Below are positions 1,766 to 43,400 of a stretch of 51,355 nucleotides of DNA, piece by piece. The position numbers were made by a program, and so were the translations under genes. The stretch lies in IMG/VR virus record IMGVR_UViG_3300025785_000023, positions 1 to 51,355 of that record. One strand, 5' to 3'. Within the stretch, counting starts at the first letter, position 1, and every line of letters starts with the position of its first letter. A model generated the notes under the pieces. It did no database searches. It saw only the letters and a list, made by a program, of their open reading frames with translations, and was not told where the DNA came from. Source of the DNA: a virus.

Positions 1766-2863
1766 TTAGTTTCTTATTAGTCCAGCCAGACGCTTCATTT
1801 CAACAATGTTGTTTGAACTCTGATCTGCTTTAACAGTACGATCACCAGTTACTTCTTTACGGTTTTCTGCAATCATTTCCTTTTTAACAGGACTTGATAC
1901 AGTACCTTCCATAACTGGATTGAGATACTTTTTAAATGCTGCGTCTAATTTATCTGTTGGGACTGATTCCAGCAGTGTTGACATCACAGCGGCTTTTTCT
2001 TTGCTTAGCGGACCAAGCAAATCGTTGATTTTGCCTTTTCTTTCGATACTTTCGTTGATGCGGCGTATTTCATCATTTTTCTTCTTAACTTCAGTCATTG
2101 CACGTTCTGATTGCTCACGCGCTTCGCTAAGTTGATTCATCATTTCATTCATCTTCTTAGTTAGCTTGTTAATATCAGCACGTTCGTTAAGATAGCTTGC
2201 ACCGAATTCAGTTGCAAAAGCTTCGAAAATCTTGCGACCGAAGTTGTTTTCTTTTGCTTCTTGAATATCAGTTTTAAGTTGAGTTAATTCTGAACGCAGA
2301 TGGGTTGTAACTGTATTTTCTACAAGAGCACTTGCTTTCTTAACAAAACTATCACGAAGAGTTTCTAACTTCTTACGACCTTCAGTTACTACTGCAACCT
2401 TAGTACGTGCGAGATCAGCCTTGTCTTGTGCAAATTCTGAAATTTCAGCTTGCAGGTTTTCAGCAACAAATGCTTCTAACTTTGCAATATTCTTTTGCAT
2501 ATTGATACGGTCATTGCGTAGTTCGCTAACTTCACTAGCTAGTGATTCACTTAAATAAGAATCGAAATTCTTAGCCTTGTTGATCATTTGCTGTGTAAAT
2601 TTTACACGATCTTCGCTAACTAATTCACGTTCTGCTGCAATCTTGCGAACTTCAGCAGTTAGTGATTCATTAACCATCTTGTCCAGAGCCTCTACCATAA
2701 CAGCACGGTCATGTGCATAGCGACCTGCCATTTCTTCACGAATTTCTGCACGAATTTCACCACGTGCTTCATCTAGCTTAGCATTCCATGCTTCTTCTAG
2801 AGTCTTACGAGTGTCTTCATTCAGAAGTCCGCTTTCTAGTAATGGTTTTAGAGCTTCGAACAT
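1766..2863 (-). CDS. 22: Prohead core scaffolding protein gp22
   Basis: A 365-residue, highly charged, almost entirely helical protein that should form long coiled coils (E/K/R/A-rich from about residue 15 to 290). This fits the T4 gp22 internal scaffold, which shapes the prohead and is then degraded by gp21. It is longer than T4 gp22 (about 269 residues). It lies between the protease gene (15-base gap) and gp23, the T4 order 21-22-23. A GGAG sequence precedes the ATG at 2863. Identity rests on position and composition plus the N-terminal pattern of a short hydrophobic helix followed by an acidic coil. Confidence 0.85.
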   Translation of the reverse strand: MFEALKPLLESGLLNEDTRKTLEEAWNAKLDEARGEIRAEIREEMAGRYAHDRAVMVEALDKMVNESLTAEVRKIAAERELVSEDRVKFTQQMINKAKNFDSYLSESLASEVSELRNDRINMQKNIAKLEAFVAENLQAEISEFAQDKADLARTKVAVVTEGRKKLETLRDSFVKKASALVENTVTTHLRSELTQLKTDIQEAKENNFGRKIFEAFATEFGASYLNERADINKLTKKMNEMMNQLSEAREQSERAMTEVKKKNDEIRRINESIERKGKINDLLGPLSKEKAAVMSTLLESVPTDKLDAAFKKYLNPVMEGTVSSPVKKEMIAENRKEVTGDRTVKADQSSNNIVEMKRLAGLIRN

Positions 2864-2878
2864 TAATTTCTCCTGAAC

Positions 2879-3505
2879 TTATATCTTTAATTCAGCAATA
2901 AACTTACGGACTGATTCCTGTAAGTATTTCTGAACTCGTTGATCTTTATTTAAATCTTTAGCCATATCCAGAATACGTTGCCCACCATTCATATTCATCA
3001 GTCCTTCATAGACTGCAGTTGGGTAGGCATTAGGTGCGCTGGGTTGTGCTACAATATCGACAGTAACGATATCAAAATCGCTTACTGCGCCGTCATGTTC
3101 ATTAACATTACCTGATCCACGACTGCTTACTCCTAGTTTAACACCACTTTCTAACATGGTGCGAACTAAATTACCCATTGGGGTGGGCAAAATCTTCATC
3201 TTTCCAAAACCATTTGGTCCATCTAACCACATTTCTGTAATCATGTGACTTACACGGTCAAGATTGATACGTAGGTTGGTTGGGTGATCTACTTCACCCA
3301 ACACACTATAACCTGTTTTAATTTGCTTGTTTAACGTTTCAATAGCACGATTGATTTCATTGATAGGATATACACGTTGGTTAGCGTTCTTAACGCCACC
3401 TTGGATACAAATACCCTTCAGATAAAGGTTTTTACCTTCATCTGAATGAGTCATTTCCATCATAGCCTGATCGTAACTGAGATGCTCTACTAGCAAATTA
3501 TTCAT
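2879..3505 (-). CDS. 21: Prohead maturation protease gp21
   Basis: A 208-residue protein, close to T4 gp21 in length. This serine protease cleaves the scaffold and capsid N-termini inside the prohead. Visible family signatures are GEVDHP with the likely catalytic His74, and GVSSRG with the candidate nucleophile Ser127 or Ser128. A DIVTVDIVAQPSAPNA stretch follows and ends the protease core. The gene sits between the acidic core protein and gp22. AAGGAAAG precedes the ATG. Confidence 0.92.
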   Translation of the reverse strand: MNNLLVEHLSYDQAMMEMTHSDEGKNLYLKGICIQGGVKNANQRVYPINEINRAIETLNKQIKTGYSVLGEVDHPTNLRINLDRVSHMITEMWLDGPNGFGKMKILPTPMGNLVRTMLESGVKLGVSSRGSGNVNEHDGAVSDFDIVTVDIVAQPSAPNAYPTAVYEGLMNMNGGQRILDMAKDLNKDQRVQKYLQESVRKFIAELKI

Positions 3506-6528: not shown

Positions 6529-6536
6529 TATTTATA
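6529..6536 (-). promoter_or_regulatory. Consensus T4-type late promoter for the portal gene
   Basis: A perfect TATAAATA on the minus strand ends 19 bases before the gp20 ATG at 6509. This is the element recognised by gp55-type late sigma factors, and a gp55 gene is encoded at 21408-22241. Confidence 0.75.
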
Positions 6537-10009: not shown

Positions 10010-10016
10010 GGTTATA

Positions 10017-10035
10017 TGATGTGCTTTGCACATCA
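10017..10035 (+). repeat. Perfect hairpin after the assembly-domain gene
   Basis: TGATGTGC and GCACATCA form an eight-base-pair stem with a TTT loop, seven bases after the stop at 10009. No T-run follows, so it is not a classical terminator; it might stabilise the mRNA 3' end. A CGCT-rich low-complexity stretch (10036-10076) follows. Confidence 0.55.
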
Positions 10036-10121
10036 GTTCGTTCGCTATCGCTCACTCACCTTTTCGCTTCGCTCTTAATAATATTATTATAATTAATCTT
10101 TACAGTTTCATTTAGACCAGA

Positions 10122-10164
10122 TTTTAGACATAGATTTCCTTAAGCAGGAAATCCATGTCTAAGA
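10122..10164. repeat. Long inverted repeat (19-base arms)
   Basis: The arms at 10122-10140 and 10146-10164 match at 17 of 19 positions around a five-base loop. It lies between two convergent genes and could stop or process transcripts from both sides. No T-run follows on either strand, so simple intrinsic termination is not certain. Confidence 0.65.
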
Positions 10165-10219
10165 CGCTTCATTTGAGCCATCAAATAGACACTAACAAAC
10201 GGAACTCGTATAATTGAGT

Positions 10220-10390
10220 GGGGCGGTTAGCCGGTACCCCTTCACATCCTGTAGATTATAACCAACGGACCCTACATATACCCTTGTTAGCGAACATATG
10301 TAAGTTGAGGTTGCTTTTTCTCAGAGCCTCATCGTTTAGCCTATCGTTAGCCAAACGTTGTCCATACAGCAATGTCGGGGTGCTGACAAC
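10220..10390. ncRNA. Candidate structured RNA in a non-coding, GC-richer segment
   Basis: The 408-base gap 10010-10417 has no convincing gene. From 10201 to 10380, 84 of 180 bases are G or C, well above the AT-rich genes around it. Successive hairpins can be drawn. GGGGCGG pairs with CCG...CCCC (10220-10240). TGAGG pairs with CCTCA (10306-10331). CGTTT pairs with AAACG (10333-10357). A two-part stem GTTGT/ACAAC with CAGCA/TGCTG spans 10357-10390. TGTAG/CTACA and ACATAT/ATATGT stems compete in between. The six-base GTTAGC recurs three times (and TTTAGC once). The strand is undecided and no known RNA family was recognised. Confidence 0.4.
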
Positions 10391-10417
10391 CTTCAATTAG
10401 TTTTCTGATAATAAGGA

Positions 10418-11560
10418 CTATGGTGCCTGAGATGCCTGATATGCCTGTGGTTTAACGAAGTATTGTTTGCCAATAAAAGTTTTATCTGCCAATGAGCCTG
10501 ATGTGCCGCTGTCGTATTTTCTTGCTTCTACTAAGCCTTGAGTATATATCTTAAAAGTACGTTTGTCACTATTTTTTATGTATTCATAGAAACTTGTGCT
10601 GTCTGGTGAATATTCGCTATTTGTTAGATGAAACGTCTTAATATTGCCATTAATTGAAGTTCCATGACTATAAAACATAGGATAACGTCCTATGGCATGA
10701 TTCCACGCTGCAAAATATTCTTTATGTGGCCCATCTATCACTCTACTGCGACCTTGAACATCATGCAAAATATCATCGTTAAACTCAGGCAATGAGTCAA
10801 ACCAATTGATTGCTTTATGTACTTGTTTTAGATGAAGTTGTGGTAGTTCGCCTGTTATATAGAAATTTTCATGTTTTGACCCAATAAAATCAGCAGTGCT
10901 GCCATCAGGACAAAAAGCATACCATTTACCATCCCGTAATATTAACTTAGGCTTATCAACACCCATGATATCACCACGATCACTTTTCTTGGTGGTGTGG
11001 TTTAAAAAATCTTCAGTTATATTAGTGCTGAAATAACGACTTGTTTTGCCAGGTTTCAACGAACAACCAGGATGAAATATCCAATCTTCACCTAAATCAT
11101 TATAAAATTTAGCCAATGATTTAAAATTTATCTTGATGTGGTTAATTTTTAAATTAGGATAATAGGTTTCTTTTACATATTGTGCATGTTGTAATGCAAA
11201 TTTTGTTTCAGGATCATTAAAGAAATCACCACGGTCATATATTAATAATTCATCAAGTAAGATATTATTATCAACAAAACTGCGTAAAATGGTGTGACTA
11301 TCATAACCGCTGCTATACCACAGTGCCAAATATTTGTATTTGTCACGCAATTGCTGGCATCGTGTGCGCAGCAAATCATACCAATCCTCATTTGGTTCGT
11401 TTGACCAATCAACATTATCCCATATCTCTTCCATCCAATGAAAAGATATTTTATCCATATCGCCACGTGCAGCATGGATAGCGGCTATCTTACTATAGAT
11501 ACGCTGTCCATTTACAACATAATACATGTTATTGTTGTAATCTACACGAAAATTATTCAC
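10418..11560 (-). CDS. PP-loop ATP-pyrophosphatase-like protein
   Basis: A 380-residue protein. After an N-terminal region of about 75 residues comes LALWYSSGYDSHT, with S83, S84, G85, D87 and S88 fitting the SGGxDS-type PP-loop. Enzymes with this loop activate a substrate carbonyl or similar group with ATP by adenylation, as asparagine synthetase and several tRNA-modifying enzymes do (family knowledge). A later GEDWIFHPGCS stretch could belong to the same domain. No glutaminase domain is seen, and the substrate is unknown. Translation starts at a GTG at 11560 overlapping the end of the oxygenase gene by 8 bases, so it ends the importer operon. It could also be an inactive relative. Confidence 0.55.
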   Translation of the reverse strand: MNNFRVDYNNNMYYVVNGQRIYSKIAAIHAARGDMDKISFHWMEEIWDNVDWSNEPNEDWYDLLRTRCQQLRDKYKYLALWYSSGYDSHTILRSFVDNNILLDELLIYDRGDFFNDPETKFALQHAQYVKETYYPNLKINHIKINFKSLAKFYNDLGEDWIFHPGCSLKPGKTSRYFSTNITEDFLNHTTKKSDRGDIMGVDKPKLILRDGKWYAFCPDGSTADFIGSKHENFYITGELPQLHLKQVHKAINWFDSLPEFNDDILHDVQGRSRVIDGPHKEYFAAWNHAIGRYPMFYSHGTSINGNIKTFHLTNSEYSPDSTSFYEYIKNSDKRTFKIYTQGLVEARKYDSGTSGSLADKTFIGKQYFVKPQAYQASQAP

Positions 11561-12152
11561 TAATTCCTAAACCTTCAACGTTGTTTAATCCAACTTGGAT
11601 ACTGATTCTGGGACGTGGAATGTTACGAACGCCATGTAATATACGAGTTTGTATTACTGTCCATGTTCGCAACGGTATTTGAAAACTTTCAACGACATCC
11701 AATAAGCTGTGGTCATTGCAACGGTCACCATTATTTCGCAAGAGTGGCTTGCCATGTTCATGATAAAACACTGTTTTATGATCCTCGCCGCCACCATCGA
11801 GAAGGTAAATTAAACTATAATTGCGACTTAAATCACAATGAGCGCCATTTGTATCCTTACCATCTTTGCCTGTATCTGCTTTAGCAATGCGAATATTAAC
11901 TACACTCTTGTCTGTAATATTATCATATACCCAATCACGCATTTCATCATCTAAACTATATGCTAGATTTGGAGCATTAATTTTCTTGACGCCATCGACA
12001 ATAATAGTATCTGTGGTAATCTTATTCCAATCGATTTGCTGTTCGCCTTGCGGCATTTGTTCTAATTCTGTATCCATCTGCTCATAAGCACGTTCAATCA
12101 AATGTTGCGGAACATGCGGCAAATCTTCTAAAATTTTATAAAACCAAGTCAT
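11553..12152 (-). CDS. 2OG-Fe(II) oxygenase-like protein
   Basis: A 199-residue protein with the double-stranded beta-helix pattern of 2-oxoglutarate and iron dependent oxygenases. The likely iron ligands are His105 and Asp107 (in GAHCDLSRNYSLIYLLDG) and His173 (in TRILHGV). Arg182 (in RPRISIQVGL) is placed to bind 2-oxoglutarate. These enzymes hydroxylate or demethylate substrates, or release sulfite from sulfonates as TauD does. It lies 10 bases after the permease gene, where tauD sits in bacterial tauABCD. However, it is shorter than TauD (about 283 residues) and not clearly of that subfamily. Small phage oxygenases of this fold are common and mostly uncharacterised. Confidence 0.65.
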   Translation of the reverse strand: MTWFYKILEDLPHVPQHLIERAYEQMDTELEQMPQGEQQIDWNKITTDTIIVDGVKKINAPNLAYSLDDEMRDWVYDNITDKSVVNIRIAKADTGKDGKDTNGAHCDLSRNYSLIYLLDGGGEDHKTVFYHEHGKPLLRNNGDRCNDHSLLDVVESFQIPLRTWTVIQTRILHGVRNIPRPRISIQVGLNNVEGLGISE

Positions 12153-12162
12153 AGTAATTCCT

Positions 12163-12909
12163 TTAATAACTATATTTCTTCTTTAAATTATTCAATAAAC
12201 CATTAATAATAACGCCTGTTAATGCAATAACAAATAGAATAGCATACATTTGGTCAATGTCCAATTTACTTTTAACATCAATAATATATGAACCTAATCC
12301 AAAATAACCGCCAATGCTACCAAATACTACTTCTAAACTAATCAATATTCGCCAACTATTTGCCCAACTTGTACTTGCGATACCTATTAGATTACTAATA
12401 GCAGCAGGTATATAAACTTTAGTAAGTGCCTTTGTGCCGCTCCATTGCAGATTTTGCACATGCTTGCCCCATTGTTCATTTACCGTTTCAATGGCTCTGA
12501 GTACCTGTAACCCACTTTGCCATACTATATTCCATATGATGATACTATACACAACCGCCGCACCTAGCCCCATAAACAGGCTCATAAAGGGTACCAGCAC
12601 GAAACTTGGCAGTGGATTGAAATATGCACAATAACGTTCAAATAACGCTTTTAACCAACTATATTTTATACAAAGTAATATAATAACAATGGTTATAAAC
12701 ATGCCAATAATATAACTTAACAACAGTGTTCGCATAGTATAATAGAAACTAAACCAAAATTTAGCTGTCCATATAAGATCATACAGTGCAGATAATATAC
12801 TTGTGCTATCTGGAAATATAAGTGGTTCTTGAACAACAAGATATAAAATATGCCATCCTACTAATATAAGTGAAAGGGCTAAAATATTATAAAGAAAGGA
12901 TCGAAACAA
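12163..12909 (-). CDS. ABC importer permease, TauC/SsuC type
   Basis: A 248-residue inner-membrane protein with about six predicted membrane helices (near residues 6-27, 60-82, 95-115, 117-135, 170-190, 220-240). The cytoplasmic coupling loop at about 140-165 (EQWGKHVQNLQWSGTKAL, then YIPAAI) corresponds to the EAA motif that contacts the ATPase. Length and pattern fit permeases of the nitrate/sulfonate/taurine family (BPD_transp_1). It starts at a TTG at 12909 inside the end of the ATPase gene (23-base overlap), with GAGG nine bases upstream, so translation is probably coupled. The other two importer parts are directly upstream. The substrate cannot be told from the permease. Confidence 0.85.
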   Translation of the reverse strand: MFRSFLYNILALSLILVGWHILYLVVQEPLIFPDSTSILSALYDLIWTAKFWFSFYYTMRTLLLSYIIGMFITIVIILLCIKYSWLKALFERYCAYFNPLPSFVLVPFMSLFMGLGAAVVYSIIIWNIVWQSGLQVLRAIETVNEQWGKHVQNLQWSGTKALTKVYIPAAISNLIGIASTSWANSWRILISLEVVFGSIGGYFGLGSYIIDVKSKLDIDQMYAILFVIALTGVIINGLLNNLKKKYSY

Positions 12910-13492
12910 TTAAATCATCCTCTTCGGTTATATTTTTGAGACCATTTTTACTGAGCAAATATATGCTGTCACCGACAATTCTTGCTTCGGTTACATTGTG
13001 TGTAACCCATACTACGGTTAAATTTTCTTCATGAACAATCTCACGGAAATCTTTTGCAACAGTTGCCCCTGTAAGACCATCTAAGGCGCTTAGAGGCTCG
13101 TCGCATAACAATGTGCGCAATCCACTGCATAAACCACGAATTAACGTGAATCGTTGGCGCTGACCGCCACTTAAATTTGTTGGGCTATGATCTAGATATT
13201 GTTCTAGATTCCATCGCTTTACCAAATCAATATATGGTTTTTGGCAAACTAATTCTAAATTTTTTCGAACAGTCATCCATGGAAACAATTGATGACTTTC
13301 TTGAAAAACACGAAATTGATTCTTGAATATAACATCCGTTCGGGTTGCAATGGAAGCAAGCAAGCTAGTCTTGCCTACTCCACTTGCTCCCATAATAACA
13401 GCAATTTCCCCTGTCTGCACCGACAAATCTATCGGTGCAAACAGTGGAATGGTATCACAAACTGTAACTGTATGGTTACTAAGGTTAATCAC
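12887..13492 (-). CDS. ABC importer ATPase, TauB/SsuB type
   Basis: A 201-residue ATPase with all functional motifs. They are Walker A GASGVGKTS (residues 35-43), Q-loop Gln64, signature LSGGQ (107-111), Walker B LLCDEP with catalytic Glu132, and the switch His165. It powers transport through the permease encoded next. The chosen start is the GTG at 13492, which overlaps the stop of the binding-protein gene as GTGA. A TTG at 13513 is a possible longer start, adding 7 residues. The protein is shorter than cellular TauB or SsuB (about 255 residues), lacking part of the C-terminal region, but all catalytic parts are present. Confidence 0.9.
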   Translation of the reverse strand: MINLSNHTVTVCDTIPLFAPIDLSVQTGEIAVIMGASGVGKTSLLASIATRTDVIFKNQFRVFQESHQLFPWMTVRKNLELVCQKPYIDLVKRWNLEQYLDHSPTNLSGGQRQRFTLIRGLCSGLRTLLCDEPLSALDGLTGATVAKDFREIVHEENLTVVWVTHNVTEARIVGDSIYLLSKNGLKNITEEDDLIVSILSL

Positions 13493-14472
13493 TTGACTAA
13501 CTTTTCGTCCCAAACCATGTCACTATGCTTCTTATCTTTGCCAGCACCATTTAAAATGCCGACACGATACATGAAATCCATATACTTTAAGCCGCTGGTT
13601 GGCTTATATTGATAAACATCAACATTTTGTTTTTTCTGTTCAATTAATTCACTTAACGTAGGATCATTTACTTCATCCTTTGTCATATAGTTAATAAGCA
13701 TTGGACGTGGATTCTTTTCAAATTCTTCAATAGCAGCCTTTTGAGCAGCTACCCAAGCACGAGCAAGTTTAGGATTGTTATCCAACCATTTTGATGTAGC
13801 ATATACAACATTCAATACGCCAACAGTTTTTGTAGGATTGTCATTATGTGCTACGATATGTGCGCCTTTGCTAACAGCAATGTTTTGCCACGGAACGCCT
13901 ACGATGCCACAATCAATCTCAGGATTTTGCTTAGTAATCTGTGCAACTGCTATATCACGAGGCATTACAACAATATTACTATCAAATTTGCCATATTCTT
14001 TATCGCCAAACTTATCGGCAGTATATTGACGTAGTTGCATTTGTTCGCCACTATTCATACCTTTCATGGCAATCTTAGTAGATGGTGTGATATCCTTTAA
14101 TGATTTAATCTTAGGATTGCCACATACTAACCACTGATCATATTCTTCTGCGCCAGCAAGTAACTTAACTTTAGATGGGTCTTTATCAAATAGGATGCCG
14201 AAACTATTGACACCGCCAAAGATAATATCAATTTGCCCCAATAACAAGGCTTCGTTTGCTTTAGTACTTTCTAAGATATCTACATATGATATCTTGACAT
14301 CTTTGATGCCTTCTTTAGCAGCATATTGCGGAAGTAGTTCAGCAATTTTATATAGAAGTGGTTCGCTGCTGGCATATTTCAGCATACGATTTACACGAAC
14401 TTCAGTTTCAGCATGTGCTGCAGTAACGAGAGCAGCAATTAGTGCAATAGTGGTAATGGTTCTGTTAAACAT
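13489..14472 (-). CDS. Periplasmic substrate-binding protein, NitT/TauT type
   Basis: A 327-residue protein with a clear signal peptide: basic start MFNR, hydrophobic core to about residue 18, and an AHA cleavage site before Glu22. The mature part has the two-lobe pattern of the SsuA/TauA/NMT1 binding proteins. A YASSEPLLYKIAELLPQYAA stretch is followed by LGQIDIIFGGVNSF and a hinge region with CGIVGVPW. It should capture a small molecule in the periplasm and deliver it to the permease encoded downstream. Family substrates include taurine, alkanesulfonates, nitrate and thiamine precursors; which applies is unknown. Its binding site for ribosomes, AAGGAG about five bases before the ATG, is among the strongest in the window. 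Confidence 0.88.
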   Translation of the reverse strand: MFNRTITTIALIAALVTAAHAETEVRVNRMLKYASSEPLLYKIAELLPQYAAKEGIKDVKISYVDILESTKANEALLLGQIDIIFGGVNSFGILFDKDPSKVKLLAGAEEYDQWLVCGNPKIKSLKDITPSTKIAMKGMNSGEQMQLRQYTADKFGDKEYGKFDSNIVVMPRDIAVAQITKQNPEIDCGIVGVPWQNIAVSKGAHIVAHNDNPTKTVGVLNVVYATSKWLDNNPKLARAWVAAQKAAIEEFEKNPRPMLINYMTKDEVNDPTLSELIEQKKQNVDVYQYKPTSGLKYMDFMYRVGILNGAGKDKKHSDMVWDEKLVK

Positions 14473-14550
14473 GTTTTCTCCTTCTCTTTAACATAACAGA
14501 GTTAAACTAAAATAGCAATTTTATTAAGAAGGAGTTTGCATTTTTAATGC

Positions 14551-14640
14551 TACGGCTGGCGTTCTAGGCGTGTCACGCTAGTAAAAGAGTACAATACTCT
14601 AGGCGTCAGGTGGGATTCCGAGGTCTTGCGGCCTTACTCC
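14551..14640 (-). promoter_or_regulatory. GC-rich structured leader of the importer operon
   Basis: The 176-base gap 14473-14648 lies upstream of the binding-protein gene. Within 14551-14640, 49 of 90 bases are G or C, unlike the AT-rich surroundings. A perfect six-pair hairpin AGAGTA-CAA-TACTCT lies at 14586-14600. A bulged stem CTAG-CGT/ACG-CTAG lies at 14564-14581. The nine-base TCTAGGCGT occurs twice (14563-14571 and 14598-14606). Closer to the gene, TTTAAC and GTTAAA can pair just before the Shine-Dalgarno. A weak sigma70-like pair, TTGCTA and TATGTT with 17-base spacing, also lies there. It could be a riboswitch-like leader, but no known family was recognised. Confidence 0.35.
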
Positions 14641-14645
14641 GTGGG

Positions 14646-14653
14646 TATTTATA
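14646..14653 (-). promoter_or_regulatory. Consensus late promoter overlapping the SDR stop codon
   Basis: A perfect TATAAATA on the minus strand overlaps the TAA stop of the SDR gene. It points at the importer operon, whose first ATG is 173 bases downstream. If used, it would give late expression with a long structured leader. The distance is far greater than the 17-19 bases seen at other late genes, so a chance match remains possible. Confidence 0.5.
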
Positions 14654-15296
14654 TTGGTTTTGTAGCTAATATAATTTCTTGTGTATAATGTTGTTCATCA
14701 AATAATGCAAGTGAAAGTCTTTGTTTGATATCATCCATTGATAGATGCAAATCACTATAATATTCATCATCTTTTTCTTGTGTCCAACTATCAAGTAATC
14801 TGTTTTTTAATATATTTGTTCGTGATTTGCCTACTCGCACAAGCAATATGCCATGATTTGTATCATTTATTTCATGCCGAAGAGCATTTATATAAGCACG
14901 TTGTGCAAATCGTGATAGTCCATAGGCAAGACGATTGTGCAAAATGTGGTCGCCATTATGCGCACTGCCAATAAAAACAACCTTACTCCACTTATTTTTG
15001 CGTTGATTAAGATAGCTGTGAGTAAATTTCATTTGACCAATCAAATTAGTTTGTAGTGTAATTTCAATATCTGACCAATTTTGCTGTAAATGTGGCACAT
15101 TACCACGTGGGTCAATGCCACAACTTAAAACAAGATAATCATAATCATGCAACTGTGTATAATAATCTATACTACAAACATCAAATTCTTGCCTACCAAC
15201 AGTGGTTACAAGTATATTATTATCATGCAACAACTCACCAATTGCTGCCCCAATACCAGTCGTTCCACCAATAATTAATGCTTTACGCACAGGCAA
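14649..15296 (-). CDS. Short-chain dehydrogenase/reductase (SDR) family protein
   Basis: A 215-residue Rossmann-fold protein. The nucleotide-binding loop GGTTGIG is at residues 10-16, with LVLSCGID (55-62) in place of the NNAG motif. In the catalytic region Ser111 (VFIGSAH) and Tyr125 (AYGLSRFA) are present. The lysine expected four residues after the tyrosine is Arg129 instead. This could lower activity or change specificity. It is the last gene of the gp47-to-SDR operon and overlaps the nuclease gene by 14 bases. A role in making a modified sugar or another small molecule is possible but unsupported. Confidence 0.75.
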   Translation of the reverse strand: MPVRKALIIGGTTGIGAAIGELLHDNNILVTTVGRQEFDVCSIDYYTQLHDYDYLVLSCGIDPRGNVPHLQQNWSDIEITLQTNLIGQMKFTHSYLNQRKNKWSKVVFIGSAHNGDHILHNRLAYGLSRFAQRAYINALRHEINDTNHGILLVRVGKSRTNILKNRLLDSWTQEKDDEYYSDLHLSMDDIKQRLSLALFDEQHYTQEIILATKPI

Positions 15297-15798
15297 TACT
15301 CACAAAATCTTTATTCATCGTCCAAAAACGATCATAATCCATAATAGCCCAACGAATATCACGATATTGGTATAGCATATGATATTCTACAAAAAGCGGA
15401 TGATCATAGTATTGGTCAAATTGTACTGCTACAAACTTGCCTTTTCGGTTAAATTTCATGATTAAGATATTAAAATCACCATCATCACTGGCATCCATTA
15501 ACTGGTCTAACCATACATCGAGTTGCTTACAACTACCACTAAACAGTTGATGAAAGGGAAAATCTGCATAACTTTTACATTCACAGTTAAACTTAGGGAA
15601 ACTTTGACCAGGTATAATATCACCTTTAAACGAGCGAATCTGTCCTTCATGTAAGAATTGCTTGCGTTTATTGTTGGTTCCACCTACATAGGCACCCGAA
15701 CCTGGCGCACGAATAAATGTTTCACCATACAACGTTGTTAGGTGTTTAGCAACATCTCGCTCCCAACTATTGCCTTTATTCTTACTTTTACTTGTCAT
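15283..15798 (-). CDS. PD-(D/E)XK family nuclease
   Basis: A 171-residue protein with a restriction-endonuclease-like core. Glu13 lies in the first helix (GNSWERDVAKHL), a glycine-rich APGSGAYVGG follows, then Asp60 (FKGDI) and the Glu73-x-Lys75 pair (CECKSY). This arrangement resembles Hjc-type Holliday-junction resolvases and related phage nucleases. It may act with gp46 and gp47, which are in the same operon, to resolve recombination or branched replication intermediates. It overlaps both neighbours (11 and 14 bases). The exact DNA target is not known. Confidence 0.65.
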   Translation of the reverse strand: MTSKSKNKGNSWERDVAKHLTTLYGETFIRAPGSGAYVGGTNNKRKQFLHEGQIRSFKGDIIPGQSFPKFNCECKSYADFPFHQLFSGSCKQLDVWLDQLMDASDDGDFNILIMKFNRKGKFVAVQFDQYYDHPLFVEYHMLYQYRDIRWAIMDYDRFWTMNKDFVSIACA

Positions 15799-16768
15799 TC
15801 AAACTCTCAATTATTTCTTTTAAAGTAAGCAAGTGCCATGATTCAGGTAACTCATATTCTTCTTTGAGTGTGTCGATGGCAAGTGCTGCATATAATATAT
15901 TATTATCTAATATTGGATTATACACTAAATTTTTACATTGTGTATATAAATTATTTGCAATACTAACAAATGGATGTTGTTTATTAATAAATTCATCATG
16001 AATATGCCGAACTGCATCCCAATCAAAGTTACCAATAGCACAATGCGACATTATATCTGCAAGTATATCAATAAAATTTGGTTGCAAAACCGTAGCAATC
16101 TCTATATTATAAAGATATTTTCCACTTGCATGTATCCAATTATCTTCTTTATTATATTCCCAACCTTCTTTTTCATGTCGCAATTGCAAACTTTTGTTCA
16201 TTGCTTCACGATATAAATCTACAGTATTTGTCGAAAGCTGTTCATTATGCCATGGATATATGTGTTTCCAATTTTCAACCAAGTAATTTCTTGCAAATAG
16301 CTTATCATTATCTTTAAATGGATAATACCCATTGCTATCTGGAACAGTTTCTATAATCCAATGTTCTTTATGATATACATTTATTGCTGCTAGTTTAGTA
16401 TGATAATCATTGCCGCCATTGTATAAATTAATAATAACAGGTTCATTTTCAATACGCATAATCCAAAAAAACGTATTTTCAAAACTTTTCATCCAATTAT
16501 GGTTATCAGAATTATAACTGACATTGCTGCGTATGCCTATAGGATATATTGTTCCCGTAGGATAACGATTGCGTAACATTGCTTGAATTTGAAATTCAAT
16601 AGTTTGGTGCGGTGGGTTTTTTATGTGAGCGTGTGCGCTACCATTGTTAAAAAATGGATTATCAATCGTATTTTTGCTTAAATCTTGTTCAGCACGACTT
16701 ATCAACCAGTGAATATAACTGCCATAATAACCAGTTGGCCATATCATCCATAGGTTTCGATTTAACAT
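15788..16768 (-). CDS. Protein of unknown function (326 aa)
   Basis: I do not recognise this protein. It is rich in Trp, Tyr, His and Asn. Near the N-terminus it has LWMIWPTGYYGSYIHWLISR. A short strand, a glycine turn and a helix at this place is how some phage sulfotransferase-like proteins begin, but this is a weak resemblance. A later segment has HDEFINKQHPF. No signal peptide or membrane helix is seen. It starts at 16768, sharing one base with the radical-SAM stop, and is followed by the nuclease with an 11-base overlap. Co-expression with the radical-SAM and SDR genes suggests a joint modification pathway (inference). Confidence 0.65.
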   Translation of the reverse strand: MLNRNLWMIWPTGYYGSYIHWLISRAEQDLSKNTIDNPFFNNGSAHAHIKNPPHQTIEFQIQAMLRNRYPTGTIYPIGIRSNVSYNSDNHNWMKSFENTFFWIMRIENEPVIINLYNGGNDYHTKLAAINVYHKEHWIIETVPDSNGYYPFKDNDKLFARNYLVENWKHIYPWHNEQLSTNTVDLYREAMNKSLQLRHEKEGWEYNKEDNWIHASGKYLYNIEIATVLQPNFIDILADIMSHCAIGNFDWDAVRHIHDEFINKQHPFVSIANNLYTQCKNLVYNPILDNNILYAALAIDTLKEEYELPESWHLLTLKEIIESLNDK

Positions 16769-17637
16769 TAAAAATAAATCTCACGATACCATTGCGCACC
16801 AAAATTGCTTACATTTTTTACAACACTGCATGTTTCAATGCACGTATCTGTCCAATTATTAATAATATTATTAAAATCTTCTATGCCATATGATTGGTTG
16901 CCAAGAAAACAACATGGTTGTAAATTACCAAGATAATTCATATATACACTGTGTTCATTAAGTGCTTGGCAGCTAACATTACCATATGATGGCTTAGGAG
17001 AATAAATTTCTGGTGGTTCTAATCCTGTAATAGGTCTGTTTATAAATCTTTTGCTAACCTTTGCTCTAAATGCTACAAATCCCATATCTTTTGCTAGTTG
17101 CATACATTCATCAACTTGGTGTTCATTGTGTTTAAAAACCAACATATCCCAATGCGCACGTCCGCCAGCAGCAATGAAACTTTCTACATTTTTAATAATT
17201 TTGTCCCAATTAGTATTGCGTCGGTAGATATGATTAGTATCTTGCAGTCCATCTATACTAAAAACACAGTAGTCAGTAATTTTGTTTAATCTGCTACCAA
17301 GGATTGCCCACCAATTTGGATTGCGCAAACTTCCATTGGTATTCATTCCCAGTGTAATTTGTGGATTTACATAACGAAACCAATCATATATTTGTAAAGC
17401 ATGCGTACTAGCTGCTGGATCGCCATATACGCCGCACATAAACATTTTATCTAATTGTTTAATAAACGTTTGATCTAATACAGATGTTAATTTTTCTAAA
17501 GTTAAATCACTTAATTGTAATTTTGGATTGAGTGTTATACCATCATCTAAAAACCTCGCACACATAGGACAAGCCGCATTGCAGCGGCTTGTTGGTTCTA
17601 AATGCAATATTTTTACCGATGATATATCAAAGTTCAT
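16768..17637 (-). CDS. Radical SAM enzyme with SPASM-like C-terminus
   Basis: A 289-residue protein with the radical-SAM cluster motif CxxxCxxC at Cys19, Cys23 and Cys26 (SRCNAACPMC). It has a GVYGDPAAS stretch in the place of the SAM-binding GGE motif and a barrel strand with FSIDG. The C-terminal part has further cysteines (VSCQAL, LQPCCFLGN, CIETC). These could hold a second iron-sulfur cluster as in SPASM domains. Such enzymes modify peptides, sugars or RNA by radical chemistry. Its ATG overlaps the gp46 stop (4 bases). The substrate is unknown. Confidence 0.8.
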   Translation of the reverse strand: MNFDISSVKILHLEPTSRCNAACPMCARFLDDGITLNPKLQLSDLTLEKLTSVLDQTFIKQLDKMFMCGVYGDPAASTHALQIYDWFRYVNPQITLGMNTNGSLRNPNWWAILGSRLNKITDYCVFSIDGLQDTNHIYRRNTNWDKIIKNVESFIAAGGRAHWDMLVFKHNEHQVDECMQLAKDMGFVAFRAKVSKRFINRPITGLEPPEIYSPKPSYGNVSCQALNEHSVYMNYLGNLQPCCFLGNQSYGIEDFNNIINNWTDTCIETCSVVKNVSNFGAQWYREIYF

Positions 17638-34411: not shown

Positions 34412-37400
34412 ATGGCTAAGCGTAAAAGTAGTAATTTTCTACCAAGTGTGTTTCAAACTTTATCTAATAAAAGATTTTTGAACACTACACTTGACCCTTT
34501 GATTCAAGAACCTGCACTTAAAAAAGTTTATGGTTATATTGGTCAGCAAGACCAAAGCCCTGTGTTTCAAAGCAGCGATTATTATATTGCTGAAAACGAT
34601 AGCTACAGTCAATTTTATCAGCTTGAACCAGGTACTGTTATTAAAAAACAAGATATTAATAGTAATACCTATAAAGTAAGCAATGTATATAACTATCTTG
34701 ATTTCTTAAATCAAATCGTAGCGGATGGTGGCATTAACAATGACCATCAACGTCTCTTTTCAAATCGTTATTATAGCTATAATGGATTTGTTGATTTAGA
34801 TAAACTAACAAATTTTCAACAATATTATTGGGCACCAAAAGGTCCATATACTATTGATGTGACTGCTGCTGGCATACCAACGAGCGAAACATTTTATTTC
34901 CATCGTATCAGTTATACTGCAAATAACCAGAACGAATTACAAAGTGCTGCAATCGGTCGCAGTGGTTATAATGTAGATGGCTATACAAACGAAAACAATC
35001 CAACAATTACGCTAAAGCGTGGTGGTACCTACACATTTAATATTAATCAAGGCGGACACAAATTTTGGATTCAAACTGAAATTGGCACAAGTGGTGTAAG
35101 CAATGTTCAAAGCAATATCAGCACCAGAGATGTATTAGGCGTAACAAATAATGGTGCTGATTACGGCACTATCACTTTCACTGTTCCGCTTAGCACTGCA
35201 CAAGATGATTTAATTACACTGCCTTCTATTCAAAACATTGACATGGTTGTAACTGATTTTAGTTACAACGATTTACAAGGCATTAATTATGATAACTTTA
35301 TTCAATACAATGCATTAGACGGAGTTCGTGCGTTTGATACAAAAATAATTTATCTTACACAATCAAATACTATCTACCAAATATCTGTTCAAAGTGATCG
35401 CACTATTAAGCTAACAGATATTGGCATTACATGGGGCAATAGTTATAAGTGCTTCGTCAATCAGGGTGATGTATATGGACATACCTTTGTATATAAAGAT
35501 AGCTTTGGTGCATTCCACCCTTTCCCTACACTAAGTGCGCCACTTAATGTTCTTTATTATGTAGATGCTGACAATGAATTGATTTATGGTACTATTCAAC
35601 TTGTTGATCCTGACCCAGTTAGTTTATTGAATGTAAATGATATTATTGGTCGTGACCAATATACTAGTCCAAATGGCATACAATTTACCAGTGGTTTAAA
35701 AATTCGTTTTACAGGTTATGTTACACCAACATCCTATGCCAATAAAGAGTATATCGTAGAGGGCGTAGGAAAAAGCATACAACTTATTGATTATAGTACT
35801 TTAGTTACACCTGAAGTTATTAATGAAAACTTAGGTGATTTATTTGGTACTGATCCAGCATTTGATGATGGCGGATTTAGTGGCACTAGCAATAGTCCAG
35901 AACAAAAAGATTATATTACTATTAACCGTGCCAGCATGGATGGCAATAGTTGGAGTCGTAATAATCGTTGGTTCCATCGTGATGTGTTGCAATACAGTGC
36001 TGATAAAACTGGACAAGTTTGGACATTTGATAGTAACCAACAAGCAAAACGTCCTATTGTAGAATTTTTACCTAATCTAAAACTTTATAATTATGGAACT
36101 AATTATGCTGGTAGTGTAGATTTAATTGATAGCGTTACTACTGATGCACTTGCAACAGTTGAAGGTCAAAACAGTTATGCTCTTCAAACAAATGGCGTAT
36201 TTAATAGCGATGGCATCCAATTATTAAACGGCAATACCATTCTTTTTATTAATGATGTAAATCCTGTTGTTCGTAATACTATCTATCGTGTGCAAACCGT
36301 TCAACCTCGTGCGCTCAGTGAAAATCCATCACAAAGTAGTGTATATGCATACTCACCATATGGCACCAATGTCATTTACCCAACATTAGCAAGCCAGTTG
36401 TTTATAGGTCAAGCAGTATCACTTGGGCAACAAGTTACAACTACTACTGCAGCAACTGTTGCTGGCAGTACAAATATTAATGTGACAGGTTCTATTGGAT
36501 TAGCAGTAGGTCAAACAATAAATGCTACTAGTATTAATACTGGTGTTACTGTTACTTCAATTACTCCACTTGCTACATCTTCAACCACAGCAACTACTGT
36601 GATTTCTACTAATACCATTAGTGTAAGCAACAGTGCATTTGTTACTACTACTGCTACTATTGTTGCCGCAAACTATAATATTACTGTTGCAAGTGCCACT
36701 TCAATTGTATTAGGACAGACAGTTCTCGGAACTGGCATACCTGCTGGCACATTTGTTACAGCTATAAATGGCACTACAATAACTATGAGTCAGCCAGCAA
36801 CTGCTAATGGCAGCAGTATCTCTGTATCATTTACACAAATTGCTATTTCACAGGCGGTTTTTGGCGCTGGCATACCATCAAATACTATAGTAACTGCAAT
36901 AAGTGGCACTACTGTTACGCTTAACAATACTGCAACTGCCAGTGCAAGCGGTGTTAGCGTTACTTTTAGCGGAACTATTGTTACTATAAGTTCGCCAGCA
37001 ATCGGAACTGTAGCGTCAGAAACTATCAGTTTTATTGATCCGTTGTCAAGTCCGTGGGTATCAAAAGCAATCCCACCTAATACAACAATAACTGGTATCA
37101 ACACAGTAAATAATTCAGTTACTATCAGCAATAATCTTACAGCAGATTTAACGGTAACCAATCCTATTTCTTCTTATTCTCAATTACTGACTACTACTAG
37201 TGGCAGCAATGTTATAACTCTACCTACAGTTAATGCTGGTGGAATTGTAGTTGGACAAACAGTAACTGGACCAACTGATCCATATTTTGTAAATCCTCCA
37301 TTGGACACTGGTACAGTATATAAAGTTACTGGTATTGTTTCTGTTGCCAACACTACTACTATATTCTTAAGTAGTAATGCTATCAATACTAATAGCGCAG

Positions 37401-40400
37401 TTTTAACTTTTAGTGGATTAGACAAATATACTCAGTTAAATTTCACTAACAGTGTTGATCAAATTCATCTTGTTCCTGTTCAAACGGTAAATGACGGCGA
37501 TAATATTGTCGCTATGTTAGGAGAAGTAAATCAAGGAAATGTTTTTTACTATAATAATAGTAATTGGCAATTAGCACAGATTCGTAATAGCAGACCACAA
37601 TTTCCTTTATTTGACATTATAGATAAAGATAATTTTAGTCTTGGTGATCAGACAATTTATCCAAGTAGTGATTTTGCTGGTAGCAAACTTTTTGGATATT
37701 CTATTGGTGCATCCACTAATACTCGTGATACAGTATTAGGATTTCCAATTGTTCGTTCATCTGTTGGTAATATTGGCGATATAGTTTTTCAAAATTATTA
37801 TAATACAGATATTTTCAACTTCAATCAAAACTTAACTGACCATGTTTATAATGTAAATTATGGCTTTGCTGCAGTAATAAATGGTTGGAAAAATTATAGT
37901 TTTGCTAATGGTTGGCAAGTAGTATCTGACAAAAGCAAGCAATATATTACAAAAACTTTTAATGCCACCCAAATTACTAAAAATAATTTTGATTTGGCTG
38001 TAAAATACAATCATAGTTATTATGAAAATAACCTTTTTGTTTATGTTAATAACGTACTACAGTCACTTAGTAACTATGCACTTCAAACCAATGATAAAAC
38101 AAGTGTATTGGTGTTTAATAATGATTTGGCGATAGATGACAGATTATTTGTAAAGATTAATGCAAATAGTTCAATGTACAAAGAAACATATACTATGCCA
38201 CGAAATCTTACAAATAATAGTGAAAATACTGAATTTTCTACTATTACTCTTGGACAGATTCGTAATCACTTAATTGAAATTGGTCACAATAGTTTAGATT
38301 TGGTTGGCGAACCTGCTGGTACAAATAACTTTCGTGATATTAATTTTAATCAAATTGGTGGTAAGTTATTACAACATAGTGCTAGTTTGCGACCAGCATC
38401 GCTTATGTTTGCTAATAATGATGTAGACCCTATACGAGCAATTCAATTTGCAAGTGACAGCTATCAAGTATTTAAAAATCAATTGCTTGATTATATCAAC
38501 AATCATCAATTTCCAAACCCAACCGACTATAGAGCATGTCTTGATAGTGTATTAAGTGAATTTTCTAAAAATTCAAACGTTAATAGCAACTTTTATTACA
38601 GCGATATGGTTGCTGGTGGTTCAAACTACATATATAATTCATATACTGTAGCAAATACAACATACAGAAACTATAACTTAGTAAATTCTTATACAACACA
38701 ACCTTATAATCTAAACAATCAAGAGGTTAAAGGATATAATGCTGTATTAGTCTATCTAAACAGCACTCTACTAGTATATGGTATTGATTATTCAATTAGT
38801 CAAAATACAATTACTTTACTGCCATCTCTTACAGTTGCTCGTAATGATATTTTAAATGTATATGAATACAGCAGCACTAAAGGTTGTGGTGTTCCAGCAA
38901 CACCAACAAAGTTAGGAATCTATCCTAAATTTAAACCTGAAATTATTCTTGATGATACCTATGTTACACCAACCAATGTTATTATTGGACATGATGGCAG
39001 CATTACTGTGGCTTATGGTGATTATCGTGATAATATTTTATTAGAATTTGAAAAACGTGTTTATAATAACATATTTGTTGATTATCAAAATAATAGTGAT
39101 TATGATATTAATAGCGTGGCACCAGGTGCTTTCCGTATTACTGATTATTCATTCTCAGAATGGACACAACTATTAAGTGCTTCATATCTAACTTGGAGTA
39201 GTCAAAATAACATTGATATCTTTACCAATAATACTATTTCTAATAATCCTTTTAGCTACAATTATAGCACTGGATTAGATAAAGTATTTGGGCAAAATAT
39301 ACCAGGTTACTGGCGTGGTGTTTATCAATATTTCTTTGATACTGATCGCCCACATAGCCATCCATGGGAAATGCTTGGGTTTGTCCAAGCACCAAGTTGG
39401 TGGGAAAATCGCTATGGTCCAGCGCCATACAGTAGTGAAAACAAAGTTTTATGGTCAGACCTTGAACTTGGATTAGTTTATAATGGTAATCCAAATGCTT
39501 CTTATGTTAATTTTAGATATGCAAGACCAGGTCTAAGCAAAATAATTCCAGTTGATGATCATGGTAATTTGCTATCGCCACTACAATGCATTGTGTCAAA
39601 TTTTGATACTGCAACATCAAGTAATGCTTGGAGAGTAGGCGACCAAAGTCCGCAAGAAACTGCATGGCGTCGTAGTAGCAGTTATCCATTTGCTATACAA
39701 ATTGCATGGTGTTTGGCTAAACCAGCAGAGTATTGTGCGTTAAAATATAATACTCGTGATTTAGTTTATAATAGTAAATTAAATCAAATCATCAATGTCA
39801 AAGGTAACAATCGTGCGTTCGATTATAGTATAACAAACGATAGTCAGTATATACCAGGTATTAATGTTTGGTTACGAGAGTTATTAATTAATAATAACCT
39901 TGATCCACAAAAAAACTGGGTTGATATTGCCAATAACAGTACTTTTAATCTTGTTTATAAGATGAGTGGTTATACTGACAAGAGTTATCTAACTATTGTT
40001 GCTGATCAAGTAAGTCCGCAAAGTAACAATGTAAGTGTTTTAATCCCACAAGAAAACTATCAAATTAAAGTAACAAAGAGTGCGCCAGTTGCTCGTGCAA
40101 TTTATAGTGCAGTTATTGTTCAAAAAGTTACAGGTGGTTATCAAGTAAGCGGCTTTGACAAGGCTCGTCCATATTTCTTAATTGTTCCTAGTCGTGTTAC
40201 TCCTAACAATTATGGAATAACAGTCGGAAGTAAATCAGCAGTTATATACAATGATAGCGAAAGTTCAGTATCTAGCTATCCATATGGCAGCATATTTGCA
40301 ACAAGCCAACAAGTAGTAGATTTCCTTGTATCATATGGCAGATATCTTACTAGTCAAGGTTTTATTTTCAACGGCGTTTTAGCAGACAATAAAACTACCA

Positions 40401-43400
40401 GTGATTGGGTGCTAGCTGCAAAAGAATTTCTTTTCTTTGATCAGCAAGAATGGGGCGATAATACTATTATTGGTTTAACACCTGCTGGTACTACTATTAA
40501 TTTTGTATCGCCATATGGTATGGTCGATCAAATTACCAATGATCACAATTATACTAAAGTTATAGACAGTGATAATACTACGCTAACAGGCAAAGATTAT
40601 CGTGTATATCGTGATGATAATTCATTTTCTATTGAACTTAAAAATGCACAGAAAGGCATACATTTATTAGATATTGCTATTATTCAGTATGAACATAGTA
40701 TTATTTTTGATAACCAAACAGTGTTTGCAGATATTCTGTATGATGAACAAGTTGGTAGTCGCCAGTTTCGCTTGCGTCTTGATGGAGTAAAAACTAATGA
40801 CTGGAATGGTAGCTTATATGCGCCAGGATTCTTTGTAAATGTTAGCGATATTCCACAATGGGTAAGTTATACTGATTATTATACTGGTGATATTGTATTG
40901 TTTAAAAATCAATATTATGCAGCACAAAATTTCATACCAGGTACTAGCAAGTTTGTTGCTGCAGATTGGTATCAAATTAATGGCAAACTATTAAGCAAAG
41001 AACTTATTCCAAACATGGCAAGCGGCGCTGCACAGTTTGCAAATTTCTATAATCCAGATACTGCTGATCTTAATAGTGCAGCAGATATTTTAAGTAAGCA
41101 TAGCACAGGTTTTCAACCTCGTCAATACTTTACTGATCTTGGACTTGACATAACAAGTCAATATAAATTCTACCTTGGTATGATTAACCAAAAAGGCACA
41201 CAAGCAGTTCTTAATGCTTTCTTGCGCAATCAACAGAAGCGTATCGATAGTGATATTACAATAAGTGAGCAGTGGGCAATCAAGCTTGGCAACTATGGTG
41301 GTACTTCTAATTTTGATAAATTGGAATTTTCTATTGGAAATGCCGCAGCAATTAATAGTCAATATCTTTTTGAATTTATTAATGAGTCTGATACTCGCAC
41401 TACCGAACACAACACTGTAAAACCAAGTGATTTATTAATTGCTCCAAAAAATTATAAAACTAATATTTTTGCTGCAAATGAATCACAAAAACAAATTGTT
41501 CCTTTTGCTGGACCTGTAAAGACATCAGAAGTTACAGCTACTGTATATGATATTAATAAGATTTACAATATCAGTGGCATTAACTCAATTATGGGTGAAA
41601 GCAGTAAGATTTGGATTGCTGCAGATGGTGCTAACCAATGGGGAGTTTATCGTCTAAGTCAGCCTGGTAATGTTTTTGTAATAAATGTAAGTCAATCTAG
41701 TCCTACAGAATTACTATTCACTACAAGTACTGCGCATAATTTTTCACAATATGATTATGTTATGCTAAAGAATGCTAAAATAACTGCTGCAAGCACCAGT
41801 ACTGGTGTGCTCGATTTAAGCGGATTTTATCGTATTAGTGCAGTAACAGCAAATACCTTTAAGGTAAAGATAGTAGGCAATACTACTGTTGCAAGTGGAA
41901 AATTAAATGCATTAGTGTTTAAACTTGTTAATGTGCGATTTACAAACGTATCTGATTTCACTAATTTTACACCTGTTCGTGGTTGGACAACTAACGAAAT
42001 AGTGTATATAGACAATGGACCTAGTGGATATGAAGTAAAGCAAAACATTGATGTATGGAAACTAAACGAAGTTCGTAGTCCAGTTTTCACCGCACCAAGT
42101 GATAATTTTGGTAGCAGTGTTAGAATCAATGACACACAAGGGTTTGCAGTTGTTGGCGCAAGCACCAAGGGTGGCACAGGTAAAGTATTTGCTTATGGTA
42201 AAACATCTTACAATAGTTGGCAAGAGTTAGGCGTATTAGTACCAGATTCTCGTGATAAGTTGTTTGGCAATGTTGTAGATATTAATAACAACAATATTGC
42301 TACAATTGGTGCGCCTGGTAATAACAAAGGCGCAGTGTATGTTGCAACTGTTAATAGTCAAAGCCTTGCTTTAAATCAGATTATTCATTATGATAATCTA
42401 TATGCTATTAGTGCGCCAAGAACCACTTCAAATGGTTATATTTTGTTAAGCAATGTTTATCCAATCCAAAATACTGCCAATGCTATTGCTATGGCATCTT
42501 ATAGTTTAGCAAACTTCGCTAATGGAATGACAGTTGTTGGAAACGGTATTCCTGCAAACACAAAGATTGCTAATATTTCATATGGATTGCAATATAATAA
42601 AATTGGATTAACCAATAATGCCAATATATCACCTGGTGAAATTATTACAATTTATCCAACATTAACTCCAAATAGTTCATTTGGTAGTTCAGTTTGCACA
42701 AGTGCTGATGGAAATTGGATGTTTGTTGGCGAACCAGTTTCACAACGTGTATTTGTTTATAAGTATCAAAATATCACACAAGATATTAGTTATAGATTTG
42801 GTGATGGTTCTTCTACTACGTTTGCACTGCCTGCAACCGCCACTGGAATAAATTTAGGCAGCAGAGATATTTCTGTTTATGCTAATCTATCATTATTAGT
42901 TCCTGATTTAGATTATATTAAAACACCTAACCAAGATTCAATAACATTTTATAATGCGCCGTCTTCTCAAACATCGCTGCGTATTGTTTATCAAAGTTAT
43001 TTTAAAGAAGTTAATCAAATTGTTACCGATGACCCAGAAGCTAGTGGATTCGGTAGCAGTGTAAGCTGCACTGCGGATGGTCGTCAATTAGTTGTAGGTG
43101 CTTTGACAAGTAATGCAACTCTTGATACAACTTATCCTAACGCAGGTAAAGTTTATATCTATGAACGCACAGTTGAAAACTTTGCACCAAATGGATTTAC
43201 TTCAAGCTTTACATTAAGTAATGCCTTTGCCAATAGTACTACAATTACTACGCCATATGTTGTTACAAATCCTTCTGTGACTGTAGATGGTTATCCAGTA
43301 AGTTCTACGATGAATTATGCTACTAATACAATAGTATTGGCAAATATACCAGCGCCAGATGCAACTGTTAGTGTTGAGACAAATCAATTTGTTGTAACTA

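Follow-up and report, generated by a model that had tools for sequence, protein, structure and literature searches.

The IMG/VR virus record IMGVR_UViG_3300025785_000023 carries, within the 51,355-nucleotide stretch analyzed here (positions 1 to 51,355 of the record, referred to as the window), five adjacent genes for a complete ATP-binding cassette (ABC) importer, a small predicted 2-oxoglutarate (2OG) oxygenase, and a PP-loop protein. We consider it likely that this module acts as one functional unit, a late and probably riboswitch-controlled operon through which T4-like phages would take up and process a small anion. The operon comprises the following features.

14646..14653, minus strand: T4-type late promoter TATAAATA, at the head of the operon
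14528..14645, minus strand: structured leader RNA with seven helices, a candidate translational riboswitch
14527..14534, minus strand: 3' strand of the closing helix P1, an anti-Shine-Dalgarno sequence (CTCCTTCT)
14478..14485, minus strand: Shine-Dalgarno (SD) sequence of the first gene (AGAAGGAG)
13489..14472, minus strand: periplasmic substrate-binding protein (SBP), NMT1/SsuA fold, with a Sec signal peptide
12887..13492, minus strand: ABC importer ATPase, 201 amino acids (aa), with a GTG start overlapping the SBP stop
12163..12909, minus strand: ABC importer permease (BPD_transp_1), with a TTG start
11553..12152, minus strand: small predicted Fe(II)/2OG oxygenase with an HxD...H...R motif, outside the TauD family (2OG protein)
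10418..11560, minus strand: PP-loop protein (HUP, ATP-pyrophosphatase-like) of a phage family

All five genes lie on the minus strand, and neighbors overlap or are spaced 10 bases apart. A preliminary description of this DNA had proposed the same five open reading frames (ORFs); all are present, intact, and contiguous, and their motifs were confirmed by profiles and alignments. It had missed the late promoter, the leader RNA, and a second conserved RNA that flanks the cassette. The window is a fragment of a T4-like myophage, with genes for the major capsid protein, portal, protease, baseplate, and late sigma factor, and its capsid protein is closest to those of large T4-related phages such as PA5oct. 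All records compared in this work are metagenomic fragments, from phages that are presumably of freshwater or lake origin, to judge by their IMG sample numbers. Our guess, from the TctC and Porin_4 proteins described below and from the importer's relatives, is that the hosts are Betaproteobacteria.

The module recurs at a fixed site under purifying selection

A scan with the SBP retrieved 11 IMG/VR contigs, and scans with the PP-loop protein, the permease, and the flanking RNA added more. The order SBP-ATPase-permease-2OG-PP-loop was found in 10 distinct phages (SBP identity, 41 to 100%), in each case between the sbcC/PDDEXK and u64/hub genes and with the same phage flanks. Such recurrence across independent contigs, each with these flanks, excludes a chimeric assembly or contamination. 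Most related phages have a short gap at the site, mostly <1 kb; L202 and L300 are sites without the module, and 7 of the 120 loci listed from the flanking-RNA search carry it.

Comparison of the importer genes in the window with those of L005 gave dN/dS values (NG86) of 0.05 to 0.07. All importer comparisons fell between 0.04 and 0.18, similar to the value of 0.10 for the portal gene. The importer genes are under purifying selection, and these values exclude gene decay; the key residues of the ATPase, 2OG, and PP-loop motifs are likewise kept in related phages.

The site is a hotspot with a changing set of SDR, radical SAM, and u326 genes. The importer could therefore be an ordinary auxiliary system for a limiting nutrient (a sulfonate, a taurine-like compound, or a nitrogen or carbon source), with the 2OG and PP-loop genes as unrelated hotspot neighbors. 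Phages, including cyanophages, carry PstS (PMC6359870), and bacterial relatives of the importer sometimes adjoin TauD or SsuD-like oxygenases. We nevertheless find this explanation unlikely: the PP-loop and 2OG genes stay with the importer in 10 of 10 ABC phages and also accompany unrelated TctA/TctC importers, and the same leader occurs in three such arrangements.

The enzymes are retained when the importer is exchanged

Two sister phages, L249 and L284, have no ABC genes at this site but instead encode TctA (PF01970; 7e-51 and 6e-57, respectively) and a signal-peptide protein there, and the PP-loop protein (26 to 27% identity) and 2OG protein (29 to 33%) are kept. In unrelated phages, the PP-loop gene adjoins a TctC gene in L027 and L186, together with porin and 2OG genes, and in L188; in L189 it adjoins a binding-protein-like gene and a TctA gene. 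L029 is the sole PP-loop phage listed without an adjoining importer gene. In both the sister and the unrelated phages, these components of tripartite tricarboxylate transporters (TTT) stand in for the ABC importer, to which they have no sequence relation; TctB was not seen in the phages.

The PP-loop protein and the non-TauD 2OG protein are the importer's conserved partners. Their retention through importer exchange is, at the level of sequence, the strongest sign that import and the enzymes belong to one pathway. The association of the same RNA and enzyme families with an unrelated pump suggests that uptake and processing of one particular small molecule are imposed on infected cells by the phages.

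Among the phages with Tct genes, L186 carries a Gram-negative porin gene (Porin_4; 2243-3205) as the first gene of its leader-headed operon, and in L188 (8584-16519) genes for TctC binding proteins alternate with several PP-loop/asparagine-synthase-like genes (SGGIDS, SGGLDS). TctC and TctA matches in INPHARED were mostly in unannotated or doubtful records. In SUP05 viral contigs, tctA and a 2OG oxygenase have been listed as separate phage genes (PMC4164917).

A late promoter and a structured leader RNA head the operon

The sequence TATAAATA is the T4 late-promoter consensus. The window holds two exact copies against 9.9 expected, a fivefold depletion, and both stand at late-promoter positions, one at the head of the operon and the other (6529-6536) ahead of the portal gene. 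Directly after the operon promoter and ahead of the SBP gene lies a conserved leader of about 120 nucleotides (nt). TAAATA is invariant in all aligned leaders and also precedes the divergent leaders of L186, L189, and L318, each of which follows a AATAAATA/TATAAATA motif.

RNAalifold folded the leader into 31 pairs in seven helices. Among the nine ABC-type leaders, 13 pairs showed double changes, compared with 7.2 after shuffling, and 0 of 500 shuffles reached 13. When the divergent leaders were added, 19 of the 31 pairs had double (compensatory) changes (9.4 on average after shuffling, with 0 of 500 shuffles reaching 19), and 95.7% of cells could pair (79.8% shuffled), in an alignment (A14/A15) that was fitted to the structure and so leans towards it.

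An RNA model, R1, built from the nine ABC-type leaders alone and with L318, L186, and L189 left out, found one copy in each ABC-type phage record tested. It also matched a single copy directly before each of the three divergent operons: PP-loop-TctA-SBP-2OG-2OG in L318 (33.7 bits), porin-2OG-TctC-PP-loop in L186 (39.0 bits; its sister contig L027 has an additional 2OG gene after the operon), and PP-loop-SBP-TctA in L189 (35.7 bits); E values from RNA models are rough. Six large relatives that lack the module (G1039 to G1044) yielded no leader. A search of Rfam gave no relevant match even at E values up to 5, and assignment to a known Rfam riboswitch class was rejected, as no curated model matches. 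The leader thus has two hallmarks of a riboswitch: it is a conserved, structured 5' RNA with covariation, and it is linked to functionally equivalent, nonhomologous genes (the ABC, TctA, and TctC/porin operons).

In 10 of 10 ABC-type leaders, the 3' strand of P1 (CUCCUU..) can form 8 pairs with the SD sequence of the SBP gene, and the SD is masked in the minimum-energy structure predicted for leader and SD together. The complement tracks changes in the SD (CTCCTTCT/AGAAGGAG, CTTCTTTA/TAAAGGAG, and CTCCTTTC/GAAAGGAG). P1 and the 8-bp SD-masking helix are mutually exclusive, as expected of a riboswitch expression platform, and an alternative helix that sequesters the SD is the usual layout of translational riboswitches. 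The layout in the ABC-type phages is probably that of a translational riboswitch, for which we infer both ligand sensing and the sign of control.

Structure and linkage of this kind would suit any cis-acting RNA, and the leader could instead be a protein-binding autoregulatory or mRNA-stability element that travels as the regulatory head of the module. Its absence from 300 Burkholderiales and 398 Pseudomonadota genomes, searched with strict filters and without a positive-control genome, is compatible with such an element. We judge this alternative rather doubtful, given that the operons behind the leader differ in first gene (SBP, PP-loop, or porin) and in importer, and given the SD-sequestering helix in every ABC-type leader. 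The metabolite riboswitch that we prefer would join other cis-acting structured RNAs that control phage genes, among them the glutamine riboswitches, as in methylophage Melnitz, and the cyanophage psbA example (PMC9004378). The module leader differs from these in matching no Rfam family and in heading an import operon with interchangeable transporters. We found no complete phage importer with its own regulatory RNA in the open-access papers searched.

The importer is of the NitT/TauT type and was probably acquired as a set

The SBP gene has a strong SD, and the signal peptide of its product ends between AHA and ET. The preliminary description had suggested a structural comparison of this protein; an AlphaFold model (pLDDT 87) matched the folds of SsuA, TauA, PqqT, Thi5, and NrtA, with SsuA best (E = 4e-11) and TauA and PqqT close behind. 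Against TIGR01728 the SBP reached 5e-6, under that model's cut-off. The ATPase matches PF00005 (3.8e-18), with Walker A, Q-loop, LSGGQ, Walker B, and H-loop kept in nine phages, and the permease matches PF00528 (5.4e-12). With an NMT1-fold SBP bearing a signal peptide and a complete ATPase and permease with catalytic motifs, the importer is, as judged from its sequence, a full NitT/TauT (NMT1)-type ABC system, and the claim of a complete phage-borne importer stands.

A pattern search found no bacterial relatives of the SBP, but profile searches recovered them in 17 of 200 Burkholderiales genomes (E < 1e-10) and 33 of 398 Pseudomonadota genomes (E < 1e-25). Since homologs of the phage ATPase and permease are encoded in the operons of these relatives as well, mostly in the same order, the phage importer was most likely acquired as a set. 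One bacterial operon family matches all of the subunits (SBP to 1e-42, permease to 1e-40, and ATPase to 4e-32). These NMT1-type operons (e.g., L154, L157, and L167) give the strongest matches to the phage importer. They differ from the phage module in being linked to TauD, SsuD-like, or organic-acid genes rather than to a PP-loop gene, and no leader was found with them. A TauD-type gene is present in L158, L160, L161, L163, and L166, and L157 holds SsuD-like genes, which were named by eye from sequence. In a tree, the phage SBP clusters with an NMT1 family other than TauA and lies closest to a branch other than the TauD-linked bacterial one; with a long phage branch and a weakly supported sister, the tree yields no firm substrate. 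Among the cultured phages in INPHARED, the SBP had no match and the permease had matches at 20 to 23% only.

The module had been called tauABCD-like. Escherichia coli tauABCD does share the order SBP-ATPase-permease followed by a 2OG oxygenase, and its importer belongs to the same superfamily (ATPase, 29% identity; permease, E = 1.5e-6). However, BLAST does not match the phage SBP to TauA, a profile gives just a weak, partial match (5.6 bits), and the SBP falls in a separate clade; the phage oxygenase shows no relation to TauD, also when compared by profile; and tauABCD has nothing equivalent to the phage PP-loop protein and leader RNA. The label was therefore abandoned.

Two conserved enzymes accompany the importer

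In the 2OG protein, H105xD107, H173, and R182 are invariant across 15 homologs. This metal triad and 2OG-binding arginine identify it, from sequence, as a member of the Fe(II)/2OG oxygenase superfamily, and it matches PHROG 81 (2.9e-4). A profile of the 15 phage proteins gave no match to TauD, and the 2OG protein has no PF02668 hit; the alignment was too diverse for a pattern scan. The 2OG gene is tandemly duplicated inside the module in L012, L026, and L318.

The PP-loop protein has a WYSxGYDS-type loop in which W81, Y82, S83, G85, Y86, D87, and S88 are invariant across 13 homologs, and the top Foldseek match of its predicted HUP core is LarE. Loop and modeled fold place it among the PP-loop ATP pyrophosphatases, with putative adenylation activity. 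It shares the HUP core and an SGGYDS-type loop with LarE and other members of that group but matches their core only and is phage-only in our sample. It belongs to no Pfam family and had no match in the INPHARED cultured phages. A profile search found relatives in 0 of 369 genomes of the class, which are a sample only, and a cellular origin of the gene was rejected within that set; the same profile matched 14 of 14 phage records, a weak control in that these records helped to build or find it. L007 carries a tandem duplicate of the PP-loop gene inside the module (10913-13116).

A second conserved RNA and other features of the window

A further RNA borders the module.

10010..10417, no strand assigned: conserved noncoding RNA at the edge of the insertion site, outside the operon

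About 380 nt long, it separates the cassette from the u64/hub genes and has 66 predicted pairs, 18 of them with compensatory changes, with an invariant hairpin loop and a covarying stem (GAGG/CCTC, GCGG/CCGC, and GTAG/CTAC). At least 120 viral contigs contain its pattern, GTTGCTTWTTCTCAKAGCY; the locus is mostly the same, sbcC/hub, and long ORFs are lacking. It matched no Rfam family and no cultured phage in INPHARED, and no tmRNA was found. It looks like a new, widespread aquatic phage RNA.

On the other side of the module, the window (14649-17637) holds SDR, radical SAM, and 326-aa unknown (u326) genes that vary between phages and a PDDEXK gene that is kept. A single 4,931-aa ORF (34412-49207) adjoins the baseplate genes.

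A proposed model for regulated import and processing

We propose that a phage late sigma factor would start transcription at TATAAATA late in infection and that the first ~120 nt of the message would fold into the leader, in which P1 competes with the SD-hiding helix. A bound metabolite would most likely stabilize P1, freeing the SD and switching on translation of the importer, a direction that we infer. The SBP, exported to the periplasm, would deliver its cargo, a small anion that is most likely a carboxylate, to the permease and ATPase of the ABC system. In the cell, the PP-loop enzyme would activate the imported compound with ATP, and the 2OG oxygenase would hydroxylate the compound or its product. 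Other phages would use the same leader, PP-loop, and 2OG families with import through TctA and a binding protein or TctC and a porin.

TTT systems transport carboxylates, NMT1 proteins bind small anions, including pyrroloquinoline quinone, and PP-loop enzymes adenylate carboxyl or carbonyl groups. On the basis of TTT cargo, NMT1 anion binding (PqqT being among the fold matches of the SBP), and PP-loop chemistry, we favor a carboxylate with moderate confidence, by analogy. The replacement of the ABC importer by TctA/TctC types likewise favors a carboxylate-like anion over a sulfonate. The original suggestion that the phage feeds infected cells with a sulfonate thus survives in part: import in the infected cell is probable, and the sulfonate is unsupported, also in view of the position of the TauD-linked branch in the SBP tree. 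A sulfonate may still be a candidate.

In tRNA, nucleotide, or cofactor modification, the typical role of PP-loop enzymes is to activate a carboxyl or carbonyl group, and radical SAM, SDR, and methyltransferase genes adjoin the module. Rather than serving as food, the imported compound could end up in a modified base, a tRNA, or an envelope or virion decoration, through the PP-loop and 2OG proteins and these variable enzymes. We entertain this tentatively, as no direct link to a modification target was seen and the neighbors are not conserved with the module.

Several observations weigh against a single regulated pathway. The PP-loop gene of G940 has no importer gene beside it, and no leader was found in G940 or G941, both PP-loop phages; in G1036 the leader cannot be judged, since the contig begins at the module. 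The TctC-like partner in L249, L284, and L189 is unrecognized by Pfam, and the PP-loop model fits only the core of LarE-type sulfurtransferases (TM about 0.25 to 0.3). Because SD sequences are similar to one another, some P1/SD complementarity would be expected anyway.

In its fullest form, a proposal on which we are evenly divided, the leader would be a new phage-specific riboswitch class that senses a small anion and controls modular operons; import would run through whatever transporter is available, be it an ABC system, a TTT, or a porin, after which a 2OG oxygenase and a PP-loop enzyme confined to phages would convert the anion into a product required by the phage. Phage metabolic genes are usually single, and their benefit is guessed from annotation; here, an importer, two enzymes, and an RNA are kept together by selection. 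Exchange of the import part while the RNA and enzymes stayed makes the question of what phages import, and why, directly testable, and the leader RNA and the SBP should point to the same molecule. If the proposal is true, the short list of regulatory RNA classes known from phages would grow by one, and this family of PP-loop enzymes would gain a first function.

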